The translations under genes and the position numbers were made by a program. From assembly GCA_951802115.1 (NCBI GenBank), contig CATOPL010000001.1, positions 186,001 through 250,000 of the forward strand: a stretch of DNA of 64,000 nucleotides. Reading direction: 5' to 3'. The notes beneath the pieces are model-generated. The model did no database searches and had not been told where the DNA came from. It saw only the letters and a list, made by a program, of their open reading frames with translations. Within the stretch, counting starts at the first letter, position 1. Each line of letters begins with the position of its first letter. The stretch comes from an uncultured Lachnospiraceae bacterium (GTDB lineage: Bacteria > Bacillota > Clostridia > Lachnospirales > Lachnospiraceae). Below are positions 47,181 through 53,355 of the stretch, piece after piece.

Positions 47181-48785
47181 ATGCCAGTCAAATATGTATT
47201 TGTTACGGGAGGAGTCGTATCCGGTCTTGGAAAAGGAATTACGGCCGCTTCCCTTGGGCGTCTTCTAAAAGCGCGCGGCTACAAAGTCACCATGCAGAAA
47301 TTTGATCCATATATCAACATCGATCCCGGCACCATGAACCCTGTGCAGCACGGGGAAGTCTTTGTCACCGACGACGGTGCGGAAACAGACCTGGATCTCG
47401 GACATTACGAGCGCTTTATCGACGAAAGCCTGAATAAAAACTCGAATGTCACCACCGGAAAAGTATACTGGTCTGTGCTGCAAAAAGAACGCAGAGGTGA
47501 TTACGGCGGCGGCACGGTACAGGTCATTCCGCATATTACAAATGAAATCAAAAGCCGCTTTTACCGCAACTATACGTCCGAGGATATGCATATTGCCATC
47601 ATTGAGACCGGCGGCACGGTAGGCGATATTGAAAGTCAGCCTTTCCTGGAGGCCATCCGGCAGTTCCAGCATGAAGTGGGGCACGACAATGCCATTATCA
47701 TTCATGTAACTCTGATCCCCTATCTGAAAGCTTCCGGAGAGATGAAGACCAAACCTACTCAGGCTTCTGTCAAAGAGCTGCAGGGTATGGGGATACAGCC
47801 CGATATCATTGTTTGCCGCACAGAACTCCCCCTGGAAAAAGGCATTAAGGACAAGATTGCCCTGTTCTGCAATGTTCCAAAATATCATGTACTGCAGAAT
47901 CTGGATGTCGAATATCTCTACGAAGCGCCGCTGGCCATGGAAGAAGAGCATCTGGCACAGGTTGCCTGTGAGTGTCTGAATCTTCCCTGTCCGGATCCTG
48001 ACCTTACTGACTGGACGGAGATGGTCAATAAGCTCCGCAATCCGGTAACGGAAGTAAGCATTGCCCTTGTCGGCAAATATATACAGCTCCACGACGCTTA
48101 TATTTCTGTCGTGGAGGCACTAAAGCACGGTGGCATCGACAACCGGGCTGTGGTAAATATCAAATGGATCGATTCTGAACTTGTCACAGAAGCAAATGCA
48201 CAAGAGCTTTTCGGTGATGTATCAGGCATTCTGGTACCCGGAGGATTTGGAGACCGGGGCATTGACGGCAAAATCACGGCTATCCGTTATGCCCGGGAAC
48301 ACCGGATTCCCTTCCTTGGACTGTGCCTTGGCATGCAGCTGGCCATTGTAGAATATGCACGGCACGTCGCAGGACTGGAAGACGCCCACAGTATGGAGCT
48401 TGATCCCAATACTCCTTACCCGGTCATCGCTCTGATGCCGGATCAGAACGGAGTGGAAGACATCGGCGGAACTCTGAGACTTGGTTCCTGCCCCTGTGTA
48501 CTGAACAAAGACTCCAAAGCATATATGCTGTATAAAAGTGAGCAGATCGAAGAACGTCACCGCCATCGCTATGAAGTCAACAATGACTACCGTTCTGTTC
48601 TGACCGAACACGGACTGACGTTGTCCGGACTGTCACCGGACGGACGGATCGTAGAGATGATCGAGCTGAAAGATCATCCTTTCTTCCTTGCAACTCAGGC
48701 GCATCCGGAGCTGAAGTCCCGTCCGAACCGCCCCCATCCTCTGTTTAAAGGATTTGTGGAAGCAGCTGTAGGCAAACAGTCCTGA
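47181..48785 (+). CDS. pyrG: CTP synthase, 534 aa
   Basis: It converts UTP to CTP using glutamine and ATP. The synthetase domain begins [21 protein letters not shown], with [15 protein letters not shown]; the glutaminase domain has [10 protein letters not shown] with the active Cys, and ends with [14 protein letters not shown] lies 11 nt before the ATG. Single plus-strand gene. Confidence 0.98.
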
Positions 48786-48809
48786 TCCGCAAATAATACT
48801 GTAAAAACA

Positions 48810-48867
48810 ATCCTGCCCCGGCTGCCAATACTTTCACTCATATCAGTATTGGCAGCCGGGGCAGGAT
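48810..48867. terminator. Bidirectional terminator between pyrG and lsrF
   Basis: A perfect 23-bp stem (48810-48832 with 48845-48867), 12-nt loop, GC-rich base. TTTTT follows on the minus strand; a short T-rich tail follows on the plus strand. Confidence 0.85.
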
Positions 48868-48906
48868 CTTGTAACATTCATTTAGGAACACAGTTCCTGA
48901 TCCGCA

Positions 48907-49785
48907 TCAGTGAATCATATCCTGATAGAATTCATAGGCCTCTTTGTCTGTAAAGCCTTCATGCACTATTTTCCCGATTGCCTGCGCCATCTCTACCGGA
49001 TGCTCGCTCTGGAAAATATTTCTTCCCATGTCGACGCCCCTTGCTCCTTTGGAGATAACCGTATATGCCATCGTCAGGGCTTCCGCCTCCGGAAGCTTCT
49101 TTCCGCCCGCCACCACGACAGGCACCGGACACGCCGCCACCACCTCTTCAAAATTGTCGCAGTTGTAAGTCTTTACCAGCTGAACCCCCATCTCCGCCAC
49201 AATCCTCGTGGCAAGCTTAAAGAAACGGTCCGTCCGCTCCATATTTTTCCCAACCGCCACCACACCCAGAGTGGGAATACTGTAGCGCATACCGGCATTG
49301 ATAACCTTTGACAGATTATCAATACTGGAGAGCTGACCGTCCGCTCCGATAAATGTCTGTACTGCCATACAGTCTGCATTCATCCGGATTGCATCTTCCA
49401 CATCGACTGCCACTACCTCATGAGACAGATCATCATCGAGCATTGAAGATCCGGAAGTCACCCGCAGTGCAATCCCTTTCGTAATCTGAGGAGGGACACA
49501 GGCACGGATAGCTCCTCTGGTTCCCATAAACACATCCACATAAGGCGCCAGCTTTGGAAGCAGCAGATCCAGCCGTTCCAACCCTGCGGTAGAACCCATA
49601 AAATATCCATGATCAAACGCAAACATGACGGAATTGCCGCTATTGGGATTAAATATATGAGACAGATGCTTCTGCATCCCCCAGTCAAGACTGTTTGCAC
49701 CTTTTACATAAAAACCTTCCTGGTTGGCAAAGGGCGTGCCCACATGGTAATTCTTTGCCACTTTCATTCCTTCTTTGTCTGCCAT
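48907..49785 (-). CDS. lsrF: 3-hydroxy-5-phosphonooxypentane-2,4-dione thiolase LsrF homologue, 292 aa
   Basis: A class I aldolase-fold thiolase that moves an acetyl group from the phosphorylated autoinducer-2 product to CoA. The similarity to E. coli LsrF is long and clear by eye: LDWGMQKHLSHIFNP, FAFDHGYFMG, GLERLD, TRIVAEMG and VDMGRNIFQSEHPV. Lys205 in VQLVKTY is the Schiff-base lysine position. AAAGGAAAAG precedes the ATG at 49785; the frame above it lacks similarity. It is divergent from the lsrK homologue. Confidence 0.93.
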   Translation of the reverse strand: MADKEGMKVAKNYHVGTPFANQEGFYVKGANSLDWGMQKHLSHIFNPNSGNSVMFAFDHGYFMGSTAGLERLDLLLPKLAPYVDVFMGTRGAIRACVPPQITKGIALRVTSGSSMLDDDLSHEVVAVDVEDAIRMNADCMAVQTFIGADGQLSSIDNLSKVINAGMRYSIPTLGVVAVGKNMERTDRFFKLATRIVAEMGVQLVKTYNCDNFEEVVAACPVPVVVAGGKKLPEAEALTMAYTVISKGARGVDMGRNIFQSEHPVEMAQAIGKIVHEGFTDKEAYEFYQDMIH

Positions 49786-49824
49786 TGTTTCTTTTCCTTT
49801 CCTGAGCCTGTTTTTGTGCAGACC

Positions 49825-49858
49825 TCGGCAGACGCTGAAAATAACTTGTGTCTGCCGA
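49825..49858. repeat. Inverted repeat in the lsrF leader
   Basis: TCGGCAGAC (49825-49833) and GTCTGCCGA (49850-49858), 16 nt apart, downstream of the lsrF transcript start. Could be an operator or an RNA hairpin. Confidence 0.45.
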
Positions 49859-49885
49859 TAACCTGCCCGTCTTCTGGTAGTTAAT

Positions 49886-49914
49886 AATATACGCTTTTGG
49901 GCTTTCCTTGTCAA
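49886..49914 (-). promoter_or_regulatory. Sigma-A promoter of lsrF
   Basis: On the minus strand -35 TTGACA (49909-49914), 17-bp spacer, -10 TATATT (49886-49891). The leader is about 95 nt. Confidence 0.75.
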
Positions 49915-50050
49915 TCCGGACCTCCTTAGCTGACTTCAGGTAAAATCCCCAAAAGCAGAGAAGCAAAGCAGCTGCATCTGTTGACAAACCTGTATTTTCA
50001 TGGCAAACTTTTTTATATAAGGATGCATTTTGTTCAAAGGAGGGGCTATT

Positions 50051-51616
50051 ATGACCGAACAGTTTTTGATGGCAATCGACGCCGGAACCGGAAGTGTAAG
50101 AGCTGTCCTGTTTCATACAGACGGAACCCAGGCTGGATGCGTTCAGCGCGAATGGGAACACAAGGAAGATCCCCGCTATCCGGGCAGTATGGATTTCGAC
50201 TGGGTACACAACTGGAAGCTGACCTGCAGCTGTATTCGTGGCGTACTAAAGGAGACGGGTATCCATCCGCAGCAGATTGCCGCTGTCTCTACTACCTGTA
50301 TGAGAGAGGGCATCGTTCTTTATGACCGCGCAGGAAATGAGATCTGGGCCTGCGCCAATGTGGATGCCCGCAGCGATGAGGAAGTCGGAAAACTAATCCG
50401 GATGAATCCCGAACTGGAAAAGGAAATCTACCTGCAGAGCGGTCAGACTTATGCGCTTGGCGCGTTACCCAGACTGTTATGGGTAAAAGATAAGATGCCG
50501 GAAATCTATGAAAAGACAGACGCTGTCGGCATGTTCAACGACTGGCTGATCCGCAGACTCACCGGCGTGGAAGCCATTGAGCCGAGCAACGGATCCACCA
50601 CCGGCATCTTTGATCTGAAAAGCCGCAGTTGGGACGCTTCCATCGCCCGAAAATGCGGACTTCGGGACGATATTTTTCCGCCGGTGACAGAATGCGGTAC
50701 TGTCATTGCAGCTGTCAGTGAAAAAGGTGAGGCGGATACCGGACTGAAAAAAGGCACTCCGGTCGTTGCAGGCGGCGGAGACTGTCAGCTGGGAGCCATT
50801 GGCGTTGGAGCCACTATGCCGAACCAGGCAGCCGTCTTTGGCGGCAGTTTCTGGCAATATGAATTCAACACTGCAGATGGGGCAACGGATCCTGGGTGCC
50901 GGGTGCGCGTAAACTGCCATGCCGTACCGGGTGTCTGGCAGTATGAAGCGCTTGCTTTCAAACCCGGTCTGGTCATGCGCTGGTTCCGTGACGGCTTCTG
51001 CCAGTTCGAAAAAGAGCAAAGCAAAATCACCGGTGAAGACCCCTATGATCTTATGAACCGGGAGGCTGCAAAGATCCCTGCCGGCTGTTACGGCATGATG
51101 TGCACTTTCAGCGATGTGATGAATTTTATCCACTGGAAGCACGCGGCGCCATCCTTTATCAACTTTGAACTGGACCCGGCAAAATTCAACCGCTATACGT
51201 TTTACCGCGCGATTCTTGAAAATACTGCCCTGCTGGTCAAAGGTCATATGGAGCTGGTCCGGGAAGCGACCGGAAACCTTCCGTCCGAGATAATCTTCGC
51301 CGGCGGCGCGTCCAAAAGTCCTCTCTGGTCCCAGATTCTGGCAGATGTTCTGGGCATGCCCGTGAAAGTCCCCGTCGTCAAAGAAGCCACGGCACTGGGA
51401 GCCGCCATTCTTGCCGGATATGGAGTCGGTATTTATGAAACTATAGAAGAAGGAGTCCGCCAGACAGTCAGATGGGACAGAACGTTTCAGCCCGACCTCA
51501 GAAATCATGAAATTTACAGTGAACTCTACCACGCATGGAGAAGCGTCTATGCCGCTCAGCTTGAGCTGGTCAATCAAGGACTGACAAAATCTATGTGGAC
51601 CGCCCCAGGCCTGTAG
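50051..51616 (+). CDS. lsrK: Autoinducer-2 kinase LsrK homologue, 521 aa
   Basis: A FGGY-family sugar kinase. The match to E. coli LsrK is strong across its length: MAIDAGTGSVRAVLF, SMREGIVLY-like CMREGIVLYDRAGNEIWAC, ANVDARSDEEV, VVAGGGDCQLGAIG, MRWFRDGFC, SQILADVLGMPVKVPVVKEA, and the C-terminus GLTKSMWTAPGL. It should phosphorylate DPD (open AI-2). GGAGGGG precedes the ATG at 50051. The cupin gene follows by 76 nt in the same direction. Confidence 0.93.
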   Translation: MTEQFLMAIDAGTGSVRAVLFHTDGTQAGCVQREWEHKEDPRYPGSMDFDWVHNWKLTCSCIRGVLKETGIHPQQIAAVSTTCMREGIVLYDRAGNEIWACANVDARSDEEVGKLIRMNPELEKEIYLQSGQTYALGALPRLLWVKDKMPEIYEKTDAVGMFNDWLIRRLTGVEAIEPSNGSTTGIFDLKSRSWDASIARKCGLRDDIFPPVTECGTVIAAVSEKGEADTGLKKGTPVVAGGGDCQLGAIGVGATMPNQAAVFGGSFWQYEFNTADGATDPGCRVRVNCHAVPGVWQYEALAFKPGLVMRWFRDGFCQFEKEQSKITGEDPYDLMNREAAKIPAGCYGMMCTFSDVMNFIHWKHAAPSFINFELDPAKFNRYTFYRAILENTALLVKGHMELVREATGNLPSEIIFAGGASKSPLWSQILADVLGMPVKVPVVKEATALGAAILAGYGVGIYETIEEGVRQTVRWDRTFQPDLRNHEIYSELYHAWRSVYAAQLELVNQGLTKSMWTAPGL

Positions 51617-51692
51617 AACGAACCTTTTTTGCGTCTTGAAAGCCTACCGATTGGAAACTTATAAATGGAATTAGGATAAGGAGAACAAACCT

Positions 51693-52043
51693 ATGTATAT
51701 CATTGATGAAAAAGACAGAGAATACCGTTTCGGAGACAGCGGCCCCAAATACCTGATGAAGGGTCCGCGTATGAATTTCGCCCTTGTACAGTTTATGCCG
51801 GGTCAGGACTTTCCGGCACATTACCACAATATAATGGAAGAAAATTTTTATATTCTTGAAGGAGAAATTGACATTGTAGTGGACGGAGTCGTCAATCCCC
51901 TTCAGCCCGGACAAATGATCCACATCGAACCGGGTGAAATCCATTACTGCAAAAACAGCTATGACAGACCCGTCAAAATGGTATCGACACTTGCACCTTA
52001 TCAGGAAACAGACAAGGTGGATGTGGAAGACTTTACTTACTAA
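51693..52043 (+). CDS. Single-domain cupin protein, 116 aa
   Basis: Both cupin motifs are complete: PAHYHNIMEENFYILEG (His43, His45, Glu49 or Glu50) and PGEIHYCKN (His84), so a metal site is expected. Cupins include isomerases and dioxygenases. It lies downstream of lsrK, where LsrG (a different fold) would act on phospho-DPD, so a role in AI-2 breakdown is a reasonable guess but not shown. AGGAGAAC precedes the ATG. Confidence 0.85.
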   Translation: MYIIDEKDREYRFGDSGPKYLMKGPRMNFALVQFMPGQDFPAHYHNIMEENFYILEGEIDIVVDGVVNPLQPGQMIHIEPGEIHYCKNSYDRPVKMVSTLAPYQETDKVDVEDFTY

Positions 52044-52071
52044 ACATACAGTAAAATGAAACGGGGCATCG

Positions 52072-52096
52072 TGCCGGGCCGCTCCCGCGGCCGGCA
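52072..52096 (+). terminator. Terminator after the cupin gene
   Basis: TGCCGG-G-CCGC pairs with GCGGCCGGCA (one bulge) around TCCC, in the convergent gap between the cupin and alaX genes. The T-tract is weak. Confidence 0.6.
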
Positions 52097-52152
52097 GAAT
52101 TCCTCTGTTGTAAAAACTGCTGTCATTTATCAATATGGACATCGGCTTCTGA

Positions 52153-53355
52153 CTACGCCCCCATAATCATATCTTGAATCTTTTCTTTTATCCCGGCAAG
52201 AGAGCCCTGCACCATCTGGGGTTTTCCACCGCCTTTTCCCTGGAATTTATCATTTAAAGCTTTGGAGAATACTCTCAGGTCCACCGTACGGCTCCCGAGA
52301 ATATAATGATATCCGTCCTCATCCGTTCCAATGAACGCACCGCAGACTCCTTCACATTTCTCCATGGCGCTGTTCACAAAACTTCGTGCTGCAATATTGT
52401 CCAGTTCTTTTTCAAAAATGCAGACATTTCGCTCTCCCGCACCCAGTCCTTCCAGCCTCTGCTGCAGATAACGCTCCTGCAGCCGATTCAGCTGTTCTCT
52501 CGTACTATTTTGCTGTTCTTTCAAATGCAGCATTGCTTCCCCGATTTTCTCCGGTTTGGCAGACAGCGCCACCGATATCTCGGTCACGCTCCGCTGTTTT
52601 TTCTGATAATCTGCCAGTGCACGGAATCCGCACAGAATCGTCATCCGACATCCGCCCCTGTGCCTTTCACAGGCAATAATTTTGATCAGTCCGATCTCCC
52701 CGGAGCGATCCACATGCGGGGCGCAGCAGGCGCAGATATCGTATCCCGGAATTGACACAATGCGAATCTGCCCGTCAATCTCGATTTTGCTCCGATAATT
52801 CACCTGTTTCAACTGATCCTTTGTCGGATACAGTACCTGTACCGGTACATTTTCAAACACGCCCCGATTGGCGCGCAGCTCCAGATCCTGCACCTGCTCT
52901 TTTGTGAGCTCTCCATTGAAATCCAGCGTTGTGATCTCATCGCCCAGATGAAATCCCACATTATCATAACCATACAGATTATGTACAAGTCCGGATATTA
53001 TATGTTCTCCTGTATGCTGCTGCATACGGTCAAAACGCACTTCAAAATTCAGCCTGCCTTTCACTTTGCGTCCTGGCTCCAACGGTTCTTTTGTCTCATG
53101 ACAAACGATGCCGTTCTTCTCCCGCGTGTCCGCCACTTCCTTATCGTCCAGCCAGCCAACATCCCCGGGCTGTCCGCCGCCCTCCGGAAAAAATGCCGTC
53201 TGATCCAGCACAATCCAATACCCTGATTCCCCGCCTTTTACGATCGGCTTTTCTTCACAGGATATTACTGTCGCTTCGAATTCTTTTCTGTGACTGTCCT
53301 TATTATACAGCCGCACTGTCTCCTGACTCTGCAGATCCATCTGTTTTGCTTCCAT
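52153..53355 (-). CDS. Alanyl-tRNA editing protein AlaX, long form with DHHA1 domain, 400 aa
   Basis: It removes serine or glycine wrongly put on tRNA-Ala. The editing site is seen as MQQHTGEHIISGL (HxxxH) and the later CCAPHVDRSGEIG with ERHRGGCRM. A coiled coil near 255-295 and a C-terminal DHHA1 region (GGGKPQMVQGSL) make this the long form. No AlaRS catalytic domain. AAAGGAG precedes the ATG. Confidence 0.92.
   Translation of the reverse strand: MEAKQMDLQSQETVRLYNKDSHRKEFEATVISCEEKPIVKGGESGYWIVLDQTAFFPEGGGQPGDVGWLDDKEVADTREKNGIVCHETKEPLEPGRKVKGRLNFEVRFDRMQQHTGEHIISGLVHNLYGYDNVGFHLGDEITTLDFNGELTKEQVQDLELRANRGVFENVPVQVLYPTKDQLKQVNYRSKIEIDGQIRIVSIPGYDICACCAPHVDRSGEIGLIKIIACERHRGGCRMTILCGFRALADYQKKQRSVTEISVALSAKPEKIGEAMLHLKEQQNSTREQLNRLQERYLQQRLEGLGAGERNVCIFEKELDNIAARSFVNSAMEKCEGVCGAFIGTDEDGYHYILGSRTVDLRVFSKALNDKFQGKGGGKPQMVQGSLAGIKEKIQDMIMGA

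Follow-up and report, generated by a model that had tools for sequence, protein, structure and literature searches.

A cupin gene next to lsrK in a Lachnospiraceae autoinducer-2 locus and its possible role in place of LsrG

Genes of the lsrF/lsrK/cupin locus

We analyzed a 64,000-nucleotide stretch of an uncultured Lachnospiraceae genome (assembly GCA_951802115.1, contig CATOPL010000001.1, positions 186,001 to 250,000; the whole stretch is called the window below), focusing on a locus for autoinducer-2 (AI-2) breakdown in which a cupin gene follows lsrK. A preliminary description of the window had reported divergent lsrF and lsrK homologs with a single-domain cupin gene next to lsrK, and had proposed that the cupin carries out the isomerization step of LsrG on the phosphorylated AI-2 precursor 4,5-dihydroxy-2,3-pentanedione (DPD). 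The locus consists of the following features:

48907..49785, minus strand: lsrF, class I aldolase-fold thiolase (3-hydroxy-5-phosphonooxypentane-2,4-dione thiolase), 292 amino acids, NF006081 match and catalytic residues
49786..50053: lsrF-lsrK intergenic region, separating the two divergent genes
50054..51616, plus strand: lsrK, AI-2 (DPD) kinase of the FGGY family, 520 amino acids, NF008187 match, FGGY_N and FGGY_C domains
51693..52043, plus strand: single-domain cupin gene, 116 amino acids, Cupin_2 match, putative phospho-DPD isomerase that may replace LsrG

The described arrangement was borne out by coordinates and by curated family cut-offs. LsrF scored 399.5 bits against the LsrF thiolase model NF006081 (cut-off 297), and LsrK scored 750.9 bits against the AI-2 kinase equivalog NF008187 (cut-off 528), each protein being ∼50% identical to its E. 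coli counterpart. LsrF residues D58, K205, and D252 align with E. coli LsrF D57, K203, and D251; K203 is the catalytic lysine and D57 and D251 are candidate acid-base residues, according to an extract of the E. coli LsrF work (PMC2728841). The cupin matched general cupin models only (Pfam Cupin_2, 63.7 bits vs. a cut-off of 27.2) and no specific NCBIfam family (top score 23 bits vs. a cut-off of 338). It did not match the antibiotic biosynthesis monooxygenase (ABM) family PF03992 and thus does not belong to the LsrG family.

The lsrF open reading frame (ORF) extends over 49914-48907 on the minus strand, with 49785 as the most likely start, its ribosome site being judged by eye. The start codons of the divergent genes are 268 bases apart, and 76 bases separate the lsrK stop from the cupin start. 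Promoter and terminator scans around the locus were uninformative. A sigma-70-like 11/12 match at 49914-49886 on the minus strand points to lsrF, but it is no evidence of function given six promoter-like sites in 48750-52300 vs. 3.2 (sd 1.6) in shuffled sequences. A long inverted repeat at 48818-48873, between lsrF and a CTP synthase-like pyrG (by eye), is possibly a two-way terminator, also judged by eye.

The four predicted metal ligands of the cupin (H43, H45, E50, and H84) were invariant in 45/45 aligned sequences and kept in all eight members of a wider set that included the most divergent ones. At the residue level both cupin motifs are present (HxH...E and ...H), as expected for a metal-binding cupin, in agreement with the conserved motifs noted previously. 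The AlphaFold model had a mean pLDDT (predicted local distance difference test) of 90.6, and top matches in a fold search included cupin phosphomannose isomerases (7zvy and 7zvm) and KdgF.

The cupin is a regular partner of LsrK

To describe the genomic company of the cupin, we collected 190 relatives from species-representative genomes and analyzed the best 80 (72-88% identical). Gene counts were taken from tblastn because clustering of 1347 mechanically predicted ORFs from the 80 loci plus a portion of the window splits families. By record title the loci are chiefly from Clostridia, with others from Treponema, Chloroflexi or kin, three "Planctomycetaceae" and one "Atopobium" assembly. LsrK was found beside the cupin in 79/80 loci; in the remaining one (L087) the contig breaks off 226 bases from the cupin. 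The lsrK gene was upstream on the same strand in 78 loci, with a gap of 12-448 bases, and divergent in L067. With adjacent LsrK in 79 of 80 relatives, the linkage is not due to chance. These closest 80 relatives lie in AI-2 loci, which runs counter to the possibility, raised with the initial proposal, that cupin relatives occur mainly outside them.

The preliminary description had presented the cupin as a feature of a compact breakdown route. This part did not hold: lsrR, lsrA, lsrB, lsrF, and lsrK were all present in 53/80 loci (lsrC and lsrD lie outside this count), and nine further loci had lsrR plus some transporter genes, so the cupin is no peculiarity of compact loci. Loci with all of these genes have lsrR-lsrK-cupin running opposite to lsrA, lsrB, and lsrF, which share a strand. 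Generally, the cupin is part of the AI-2 loci found in Clostridia and some further groups, and the window carries a reduced version without LsrR and LsrB. No LsrG was found in any of the 80 loci.

Genome draws chosen irrespective of the cupin gave a similar picture. In the family draw (397 genomes), LsrK scored above the cut-off in 12 genomes; the same 12 had the cupin at 205-235 bits, and all were without a genuine LsrG. Three other genomes of this draw had cupin scores of 120.5, 47, and 42 bits. The class draw (391 genomes) and the phylum draw (398 genomes) each yielded two LsrKs above the cut-off, the window's included. The second LsrK of the class draw (G993) has a cupin 45 bases downstream, along with lsrR, lsrA, lsrB, and lsrF; that of the phylum draw (G659) precedes nothing closer than a remote cupin match, which aligns to the Salmonella cupin at 32% across 82 residues. 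We rejected the explanations that the cupin is unrelated to AI-2 or is not a real feature.

ORF clustering of the 80 loci revealed no recurring gene for an alternative isomerase. The large clusters were the lsr genes and the cupin, then a Mem_trans (PF03547) family in 22 loci, and then apparent antisense shadows. The Mem_trans family was discarded as a candidate isomerase because it is a transporter and not an enzyme; its gene, mostly located past lsrF (e.g., L081 224-1210), possibly encodes a carrier of AI-2 or its product. Mirror-tree analysis adds little: the correlation was 0.80 over 86 loci, but that of cupin and LsrK was only 0.45 in the clostridial clade (82 loci), and over 64 loci the values were 0.54 for cupin-LsrF and 0.62 for LsrK-LsrF. 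In Clostridium magnum (L064 7995-9947), fragmentary lsrK, lsrB, and lsrF sit beside a full-length cupin, which indicates either a decayed locus or an assembly problem.

No genuine LsrG in 62 genomes with lsrK and the cupin

The source genome (3.31 Mb, 37 contigs, 93.6% complete) contains no ABM-family protein of the LsrG type at E ≤ 1; PF03992 gives 74 and 86 bits for two real LsrGs. LsrR gave no match at 1e-15 (514 bits in both control genomes). The best LsrB match reached 117 bits, vs. 609 and 613 bits in two relatives with full loci. The lack of lsrG and LsrR noted for the window thus extends to the whole genome, as does the lack of a transporter as far as LsrB is concerned (LsrA, LsrC, and LsrD were not searched genome-wide); with LsrB and LsrR missing, this is not a complete lsr operon. 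The genome has luxS (191 bits) on a contig other than that of the lsrK locus, and no close paralogue of the cupin (next best E 0.03).

We then ran a profile built from seven LsrGs over 62 genomes having lsrK and the cupin (12 found in the family draw plus the genomes of 50 cupin loci among the 80). Three real LsrGs scored 154-180 bits on this profile, two of them being part of it and the Salmonella one (154) lying outside. None of the 62 genomes has a genuine LsrG. Weak matches in nine genomes (18-46 bits) were rejected as other ABM proteins, the top alignments lacking the GNLRFD stretch. A true lsrG elsewhere in the genome, which would have spoken against the proposal, was therefore found neither in the source genome nor in the 62 genomes searched. 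LsrF was retained in 62/63 genomes (the 62 plus G993) at 1e-60 and was above its cut-off in 61/63. Since LsrF takes isomerized phospho-DPD as its substrate, according to the portion available of PMC8016206, some agent must isomerize it in these genomes unless the spontaneous rate suffices.

In some other bacteria the slot after lsrK is occupied by LsrG itself. Among 72,556 plasmid records, LsrK was detected in 79 (E ≤ 1e-60), LsrG-like proteins in 77 (E ≤ 1e-10), and the cupin in seven (E ≤ 1e-8; four Salmonella, two Lacticaseibacillus, and one Deinococcus). One record per genus was opened for ten genera, the remaining LsrK and LsrG counts being comparable by organism name only. In four of the five alphaproteobacterial loci opened (plasmids of S. 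meliloti, Thalassospira, Rhizobium, and Paracoccus), LsrG directly follows lsrK; these proteins are annotated as antibiotic biosynthesis monooxygenases and are 42-53% identical to E. coli LsrG. In the fifth (Roseicitreum), LsrG lies elsewhere in the lsr locus. The cupin fills the same slot in Clostridia and on a Lacticaseibacillus plasmid, and lsrK adjoins the cupin in all five records examined of the seven cupin plasmids.

Two side observations came from these plasmids. The five alphaproteobacterial loci (L122, L123, L125, L126, and L127) have no annotated LsrF. A class II aldolase/adducin protein takes its place and appears to be a further replacement within the AI-2 pathway; the domain was tested for L122 only, where the protein at 1914-3164 matches PF00596. 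On the Lacticaseibacillus plasmid, which is typed as conjugative, the lsr locus with cupin and rbsD (L121 2258-11348) has transposase genes on both sides.

Reduced loci and linkage to luxS

When loci extending 7.8 kb or more in the lsrK direction are considered, eight of the 80 have lsrK and cupin without lsrR, lsrA, and lsrB (L038, L045, L050, L053, L057, L067, L096, and L097); the window locus is a ninth case. In the window genome and seven of the reduced-locus genomes (that of L097 left out), the best LsrB and LsrR matches were 157 bits (vs. 609-613) and 66 bits (vs. 514), respectively. luxS was detected in 7/8 of these searched genomes, the exception being G797 (1.5 Mb). In the LsrK tree the window and L050 are sisters, and the full-locus L041 and L043 share their four-row clade, which makes a derived origin of the reduced form probable.

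The luxS gene lies within the fetched stretch in five of the 80 loci (L049, L057, L067, L097, and L107). L097 (8414-13428) carries on one strand lsrK, cupin, a rubrerythrin-like gene, lsrF, luxS, and pfs, and no lsr transporter or repressor gene was found in its stretch. Its lsrK, lsrF, luxS, and pfs are above NCBIfam cut-offs, the rubrerythrin-like gene above Pfam's only. L107 has the end of lsrK (cut by a contig edge), cupin, lsrF, an opposite-strand rubrerythrin-like gene, luxS, and pfs. In two further genomes (G805 and G812), the genes pfs, luxS, and lsrF are no more than ∼10 kb apart. A rubrerythrin-like gene adjoins lsrF in four luxS-linked loci:

L097 10472-11008: rubrerythrin-like gene (model match)
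L107 1843-2436: rubrerythrin-like gene (model match)
L180 13482-14021: rubrerythrin-like gene (by eye)
L181 13640-14179: rubrerythrin-like gene (by eye)

Proposed role of the cupin and alternative explanations

The cupin most likely performs the isomerization of LsrG, the locus being an AI-2 (DPD) breakdown module; we put the probability of this reading at a little under 0.6. It is favored because the cupin is linked to LsrK, LsrG is absent, LsrF is kept, and LsrG occupies the same slot elsewhere. The initial idea is thus the best current explanation in a recast form, with the cupin as the regular LsrK partner in clostridial AI-2 loci lacking LsrG. The genes, their families and linkage, the lack of LsrG, and the conserved metal-site residues are established here; we infer the substrate, the reaction, and the metal. 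In the proposed pathway, LsrK would phosphorylate DPD at C5, as its strong family match suggests. The cupin would bind a divalent metal via H43, H45, E50, and H84 and isomerize phospho-DPD (keto-hydroxyl) through an enediol(ate), a step for which E. coli uses the unrelated ABM-family LsrG. LsrF, judged from its family match and kept catalytic residues, would then move the acetyl group to coenzyme A (CoA), giving dihydroxyacetone phosphate (DHAP) and acetyl-CoA.

Several observations weigh against this assignment. One Salmonella record (L142) has an accessory lsr locus with lsrACDBFG plus an epimerase gene running one way and lsrR-lsrK-cupin running the opposite way, and an accessory lsr locus of E. 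coli YJ3 (L170) has the same layout with lsrG, epimerase gene, and cupin; where both are present, the cupin is no simple substitute for LsrG. R26 and E49 are not kept in these two cupins, which are 40-45% identical to that of the window and share its metal ligands. The Deinococcus plasmid has lsrK and cupin with neither lsrF nor lsrG within the 18 kb seen, and for two distant kinases below the LsrK cut-off (G759 and G684) the stretches seen contain no cupin match. In another genome (G001, locus L144 614-5963), a 50% identical cupin adjoins a non-LsrK FGGY kinase and other non-lsr genes. The fold search scored many cupins of differing function alike, and the best Protein Data Bank match by sequence profile was quercetin 2,3-dioxygenase (4e-12). 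The neighbors in L144 also include genes resembling an FAD-linked oxidase and a DeoR regulator (both by eye), and the wider cupin family may have a part in a further FGGY-kinase pathway.

The enteric loci leave open that the cupin acts at a different step of the same pathway, opening, hydrating, or interconverting AI-2 before LsrK or handling side products such as a phosphorylated furanone; in Clostridia the LsrG step would then be spontaneous or performed by an unlinked enzyme. Coexistence with lsrG fits redundancy equally well as a separate step. A query of lsrK end plus cupin is covered to 80% or more in 125 of 5426 E. coli genomes (one of these was opened); the lsr stretch of K-12 has lsrG and no cupin by annotation or tblastn, which argues against a separate step. 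A Klebsiella record likewise has lsrG and no cupin in its lsr stretch; an Enterobacter record, in which lsrK is broken close to the record end and the 12.9 kb seen hold neither gene, was counted as uninformative. In a 28-row LsrK tree the cupin label requires four changes, so gains or losses have happened. Consistent with a separate step are rbsD (annotated D-ribose pyranase) after the cupin in Lacticaseibacillus, an RbsD/FucU gene beside LsrG in Roseicitreum, and a yeast cupin, Cff1p, needed for the AI-2-like furanone 4-hydroxy-5-methylfuran-3(2H)-one (MHF) in the part available of PMC8092285. The 80 clostridial-type loci, however, show no other recurring candidate isomerase gene, and we consider a different step unlikely, though a serious alternative.

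A non-enzymatic role, in which the cupin binds phospho-AI-2 and tunes LsrK or LsrR, would agree with the AraC_binding match of the Salmonella member (39 bits vs. a cut-off of 21) and with the presence of LsrK beside the close relatives, but not with the invariant metal ligands or with reduced loci that keep the cupin though LsrR is lost; this appears improbable. The quercetin dioxygenase match and the pentane-2,4-dione intermediate could suggest a dioxygenase or C-C lyase that needs a metal and splits the 2,4-diketone or a reductone form, like quercetin or diketone dioxygenases. An O2-using step is unlikely because the carriers are mostly Clostridia, which are largely strict anaerobes, and the diketone is already cleaved by LsrF; we regard such a role as the least probable. 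LsrG-type isomerization by the cupin remains our preferred reading, and the initial claim is partly supported: the absence of lsrG (62/62 genomes) and the shared slot speak for it, and a plain substitution did not carry over to the Salmonella and E. coli YJ3 accessory loci.

For lineages like that of the window, we tentatively suggest, at somewhat less than even odds, that LsrK, cupin, and LsrF salvage the by-product of the cell's own LuxS and no longer serve signaling. The suggestion comes from the clustering of pfs and luxS with lsrK, cupin, and lsrF in some transporter-less relatives. Pfs and LuxS would supply DPD from S-adenosylhomocysteine, and LsrK, cupin, and LsrF would consume it without import: after phosphorylation and cupin-catalyzed isomerization, cytoplasmic DPD would be split into DHAP and acetyl-CoA, and the recovery of S-adenosylhomocysteine carbon would be complete.

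If the proposed role is correct, many Clostridia break down AI-2 with an enzyme unrelated to LsrG, and an unnamed cupin family gains a testable reaction. Working pathways would then escape surveys requiring lsrG, and transporter-less ones those requiring LsrB. In some gut bacteria AI-2 would, given the luxS-linked clusters, be a recycled metabolite and not a signal.

Comparison with known systems

Existing annotation already links a cupin to AI-2 operons. "Cupin domain protein in autoinducer 2 (AI-2)-related operon" is a RASTtk/PATRIC role in a table for Bacillus sp. B87, where it stands beside lsrR, lsrK, lsrC, lsrD, and the thiolase (PMC8876208, table portion); the B87 and window cupins share this setting by role name alone, the table portion stating no function. 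We found no assignment of function to an AI-2-locus cupin in the literature covered, which did not include the clostridial LsrB work (Torcato 2019). From its number next to lsrK, and not from its sequence, we take Salmonella STM4071 to be probably the cupin gene. STM4071 is listed among lsr genes changed in a fabR mutant in an excerpt of PMC4804515. The words lsrG, lsrF, and cupin do not occur in the main text of a survey from 2025 on AI-2 in gut bacteria (PMC12503165). New here are the pattern of LsrG replacement by the cupin and the transporter-less forms, some of them linked to luxS and pfs.

KdgF functions in (phospho)sugar chemistry. The single-domain cupin phosphomannose isomerases (7zvy and 7zvm) and KdgF resemble the window cupin in fold, size, and, if the proposed role holds, this type of chemistry, but they share only 14-25% identity with it and act on other substrates, and the profile match to phosphomannose isomerases begins only past the GPKYLMKGPR stretch. 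Yeast Cff1p (YML079w), proposed as the maker of the AI-2 mimic MHF in the excerpted text (PMC8092285), is likened to it by description only: Cff1p is a cupin in AI-2-like furanone chemistry and has no lsr tie. Compared with the lsr operon of E. coli and Salmonella (lsrACDBFG and lsrRK), the window locus has true LsrK and LsrF family members but no LsrG, LsrR, or LsrB, and a cupin after lsrK. LsrG, a (4S)-4-hydroxy-5-phosphonooxypentane-2,3-dione isomerase, and the window cupin would have the proposed reaction in common, together with the post-lsrK slot of four of the five alphaproteobacterial loci, whereas LsrG is an ABM protein (PF03992, 74-86 bits) and the window protein a cupin of an unrelated family.

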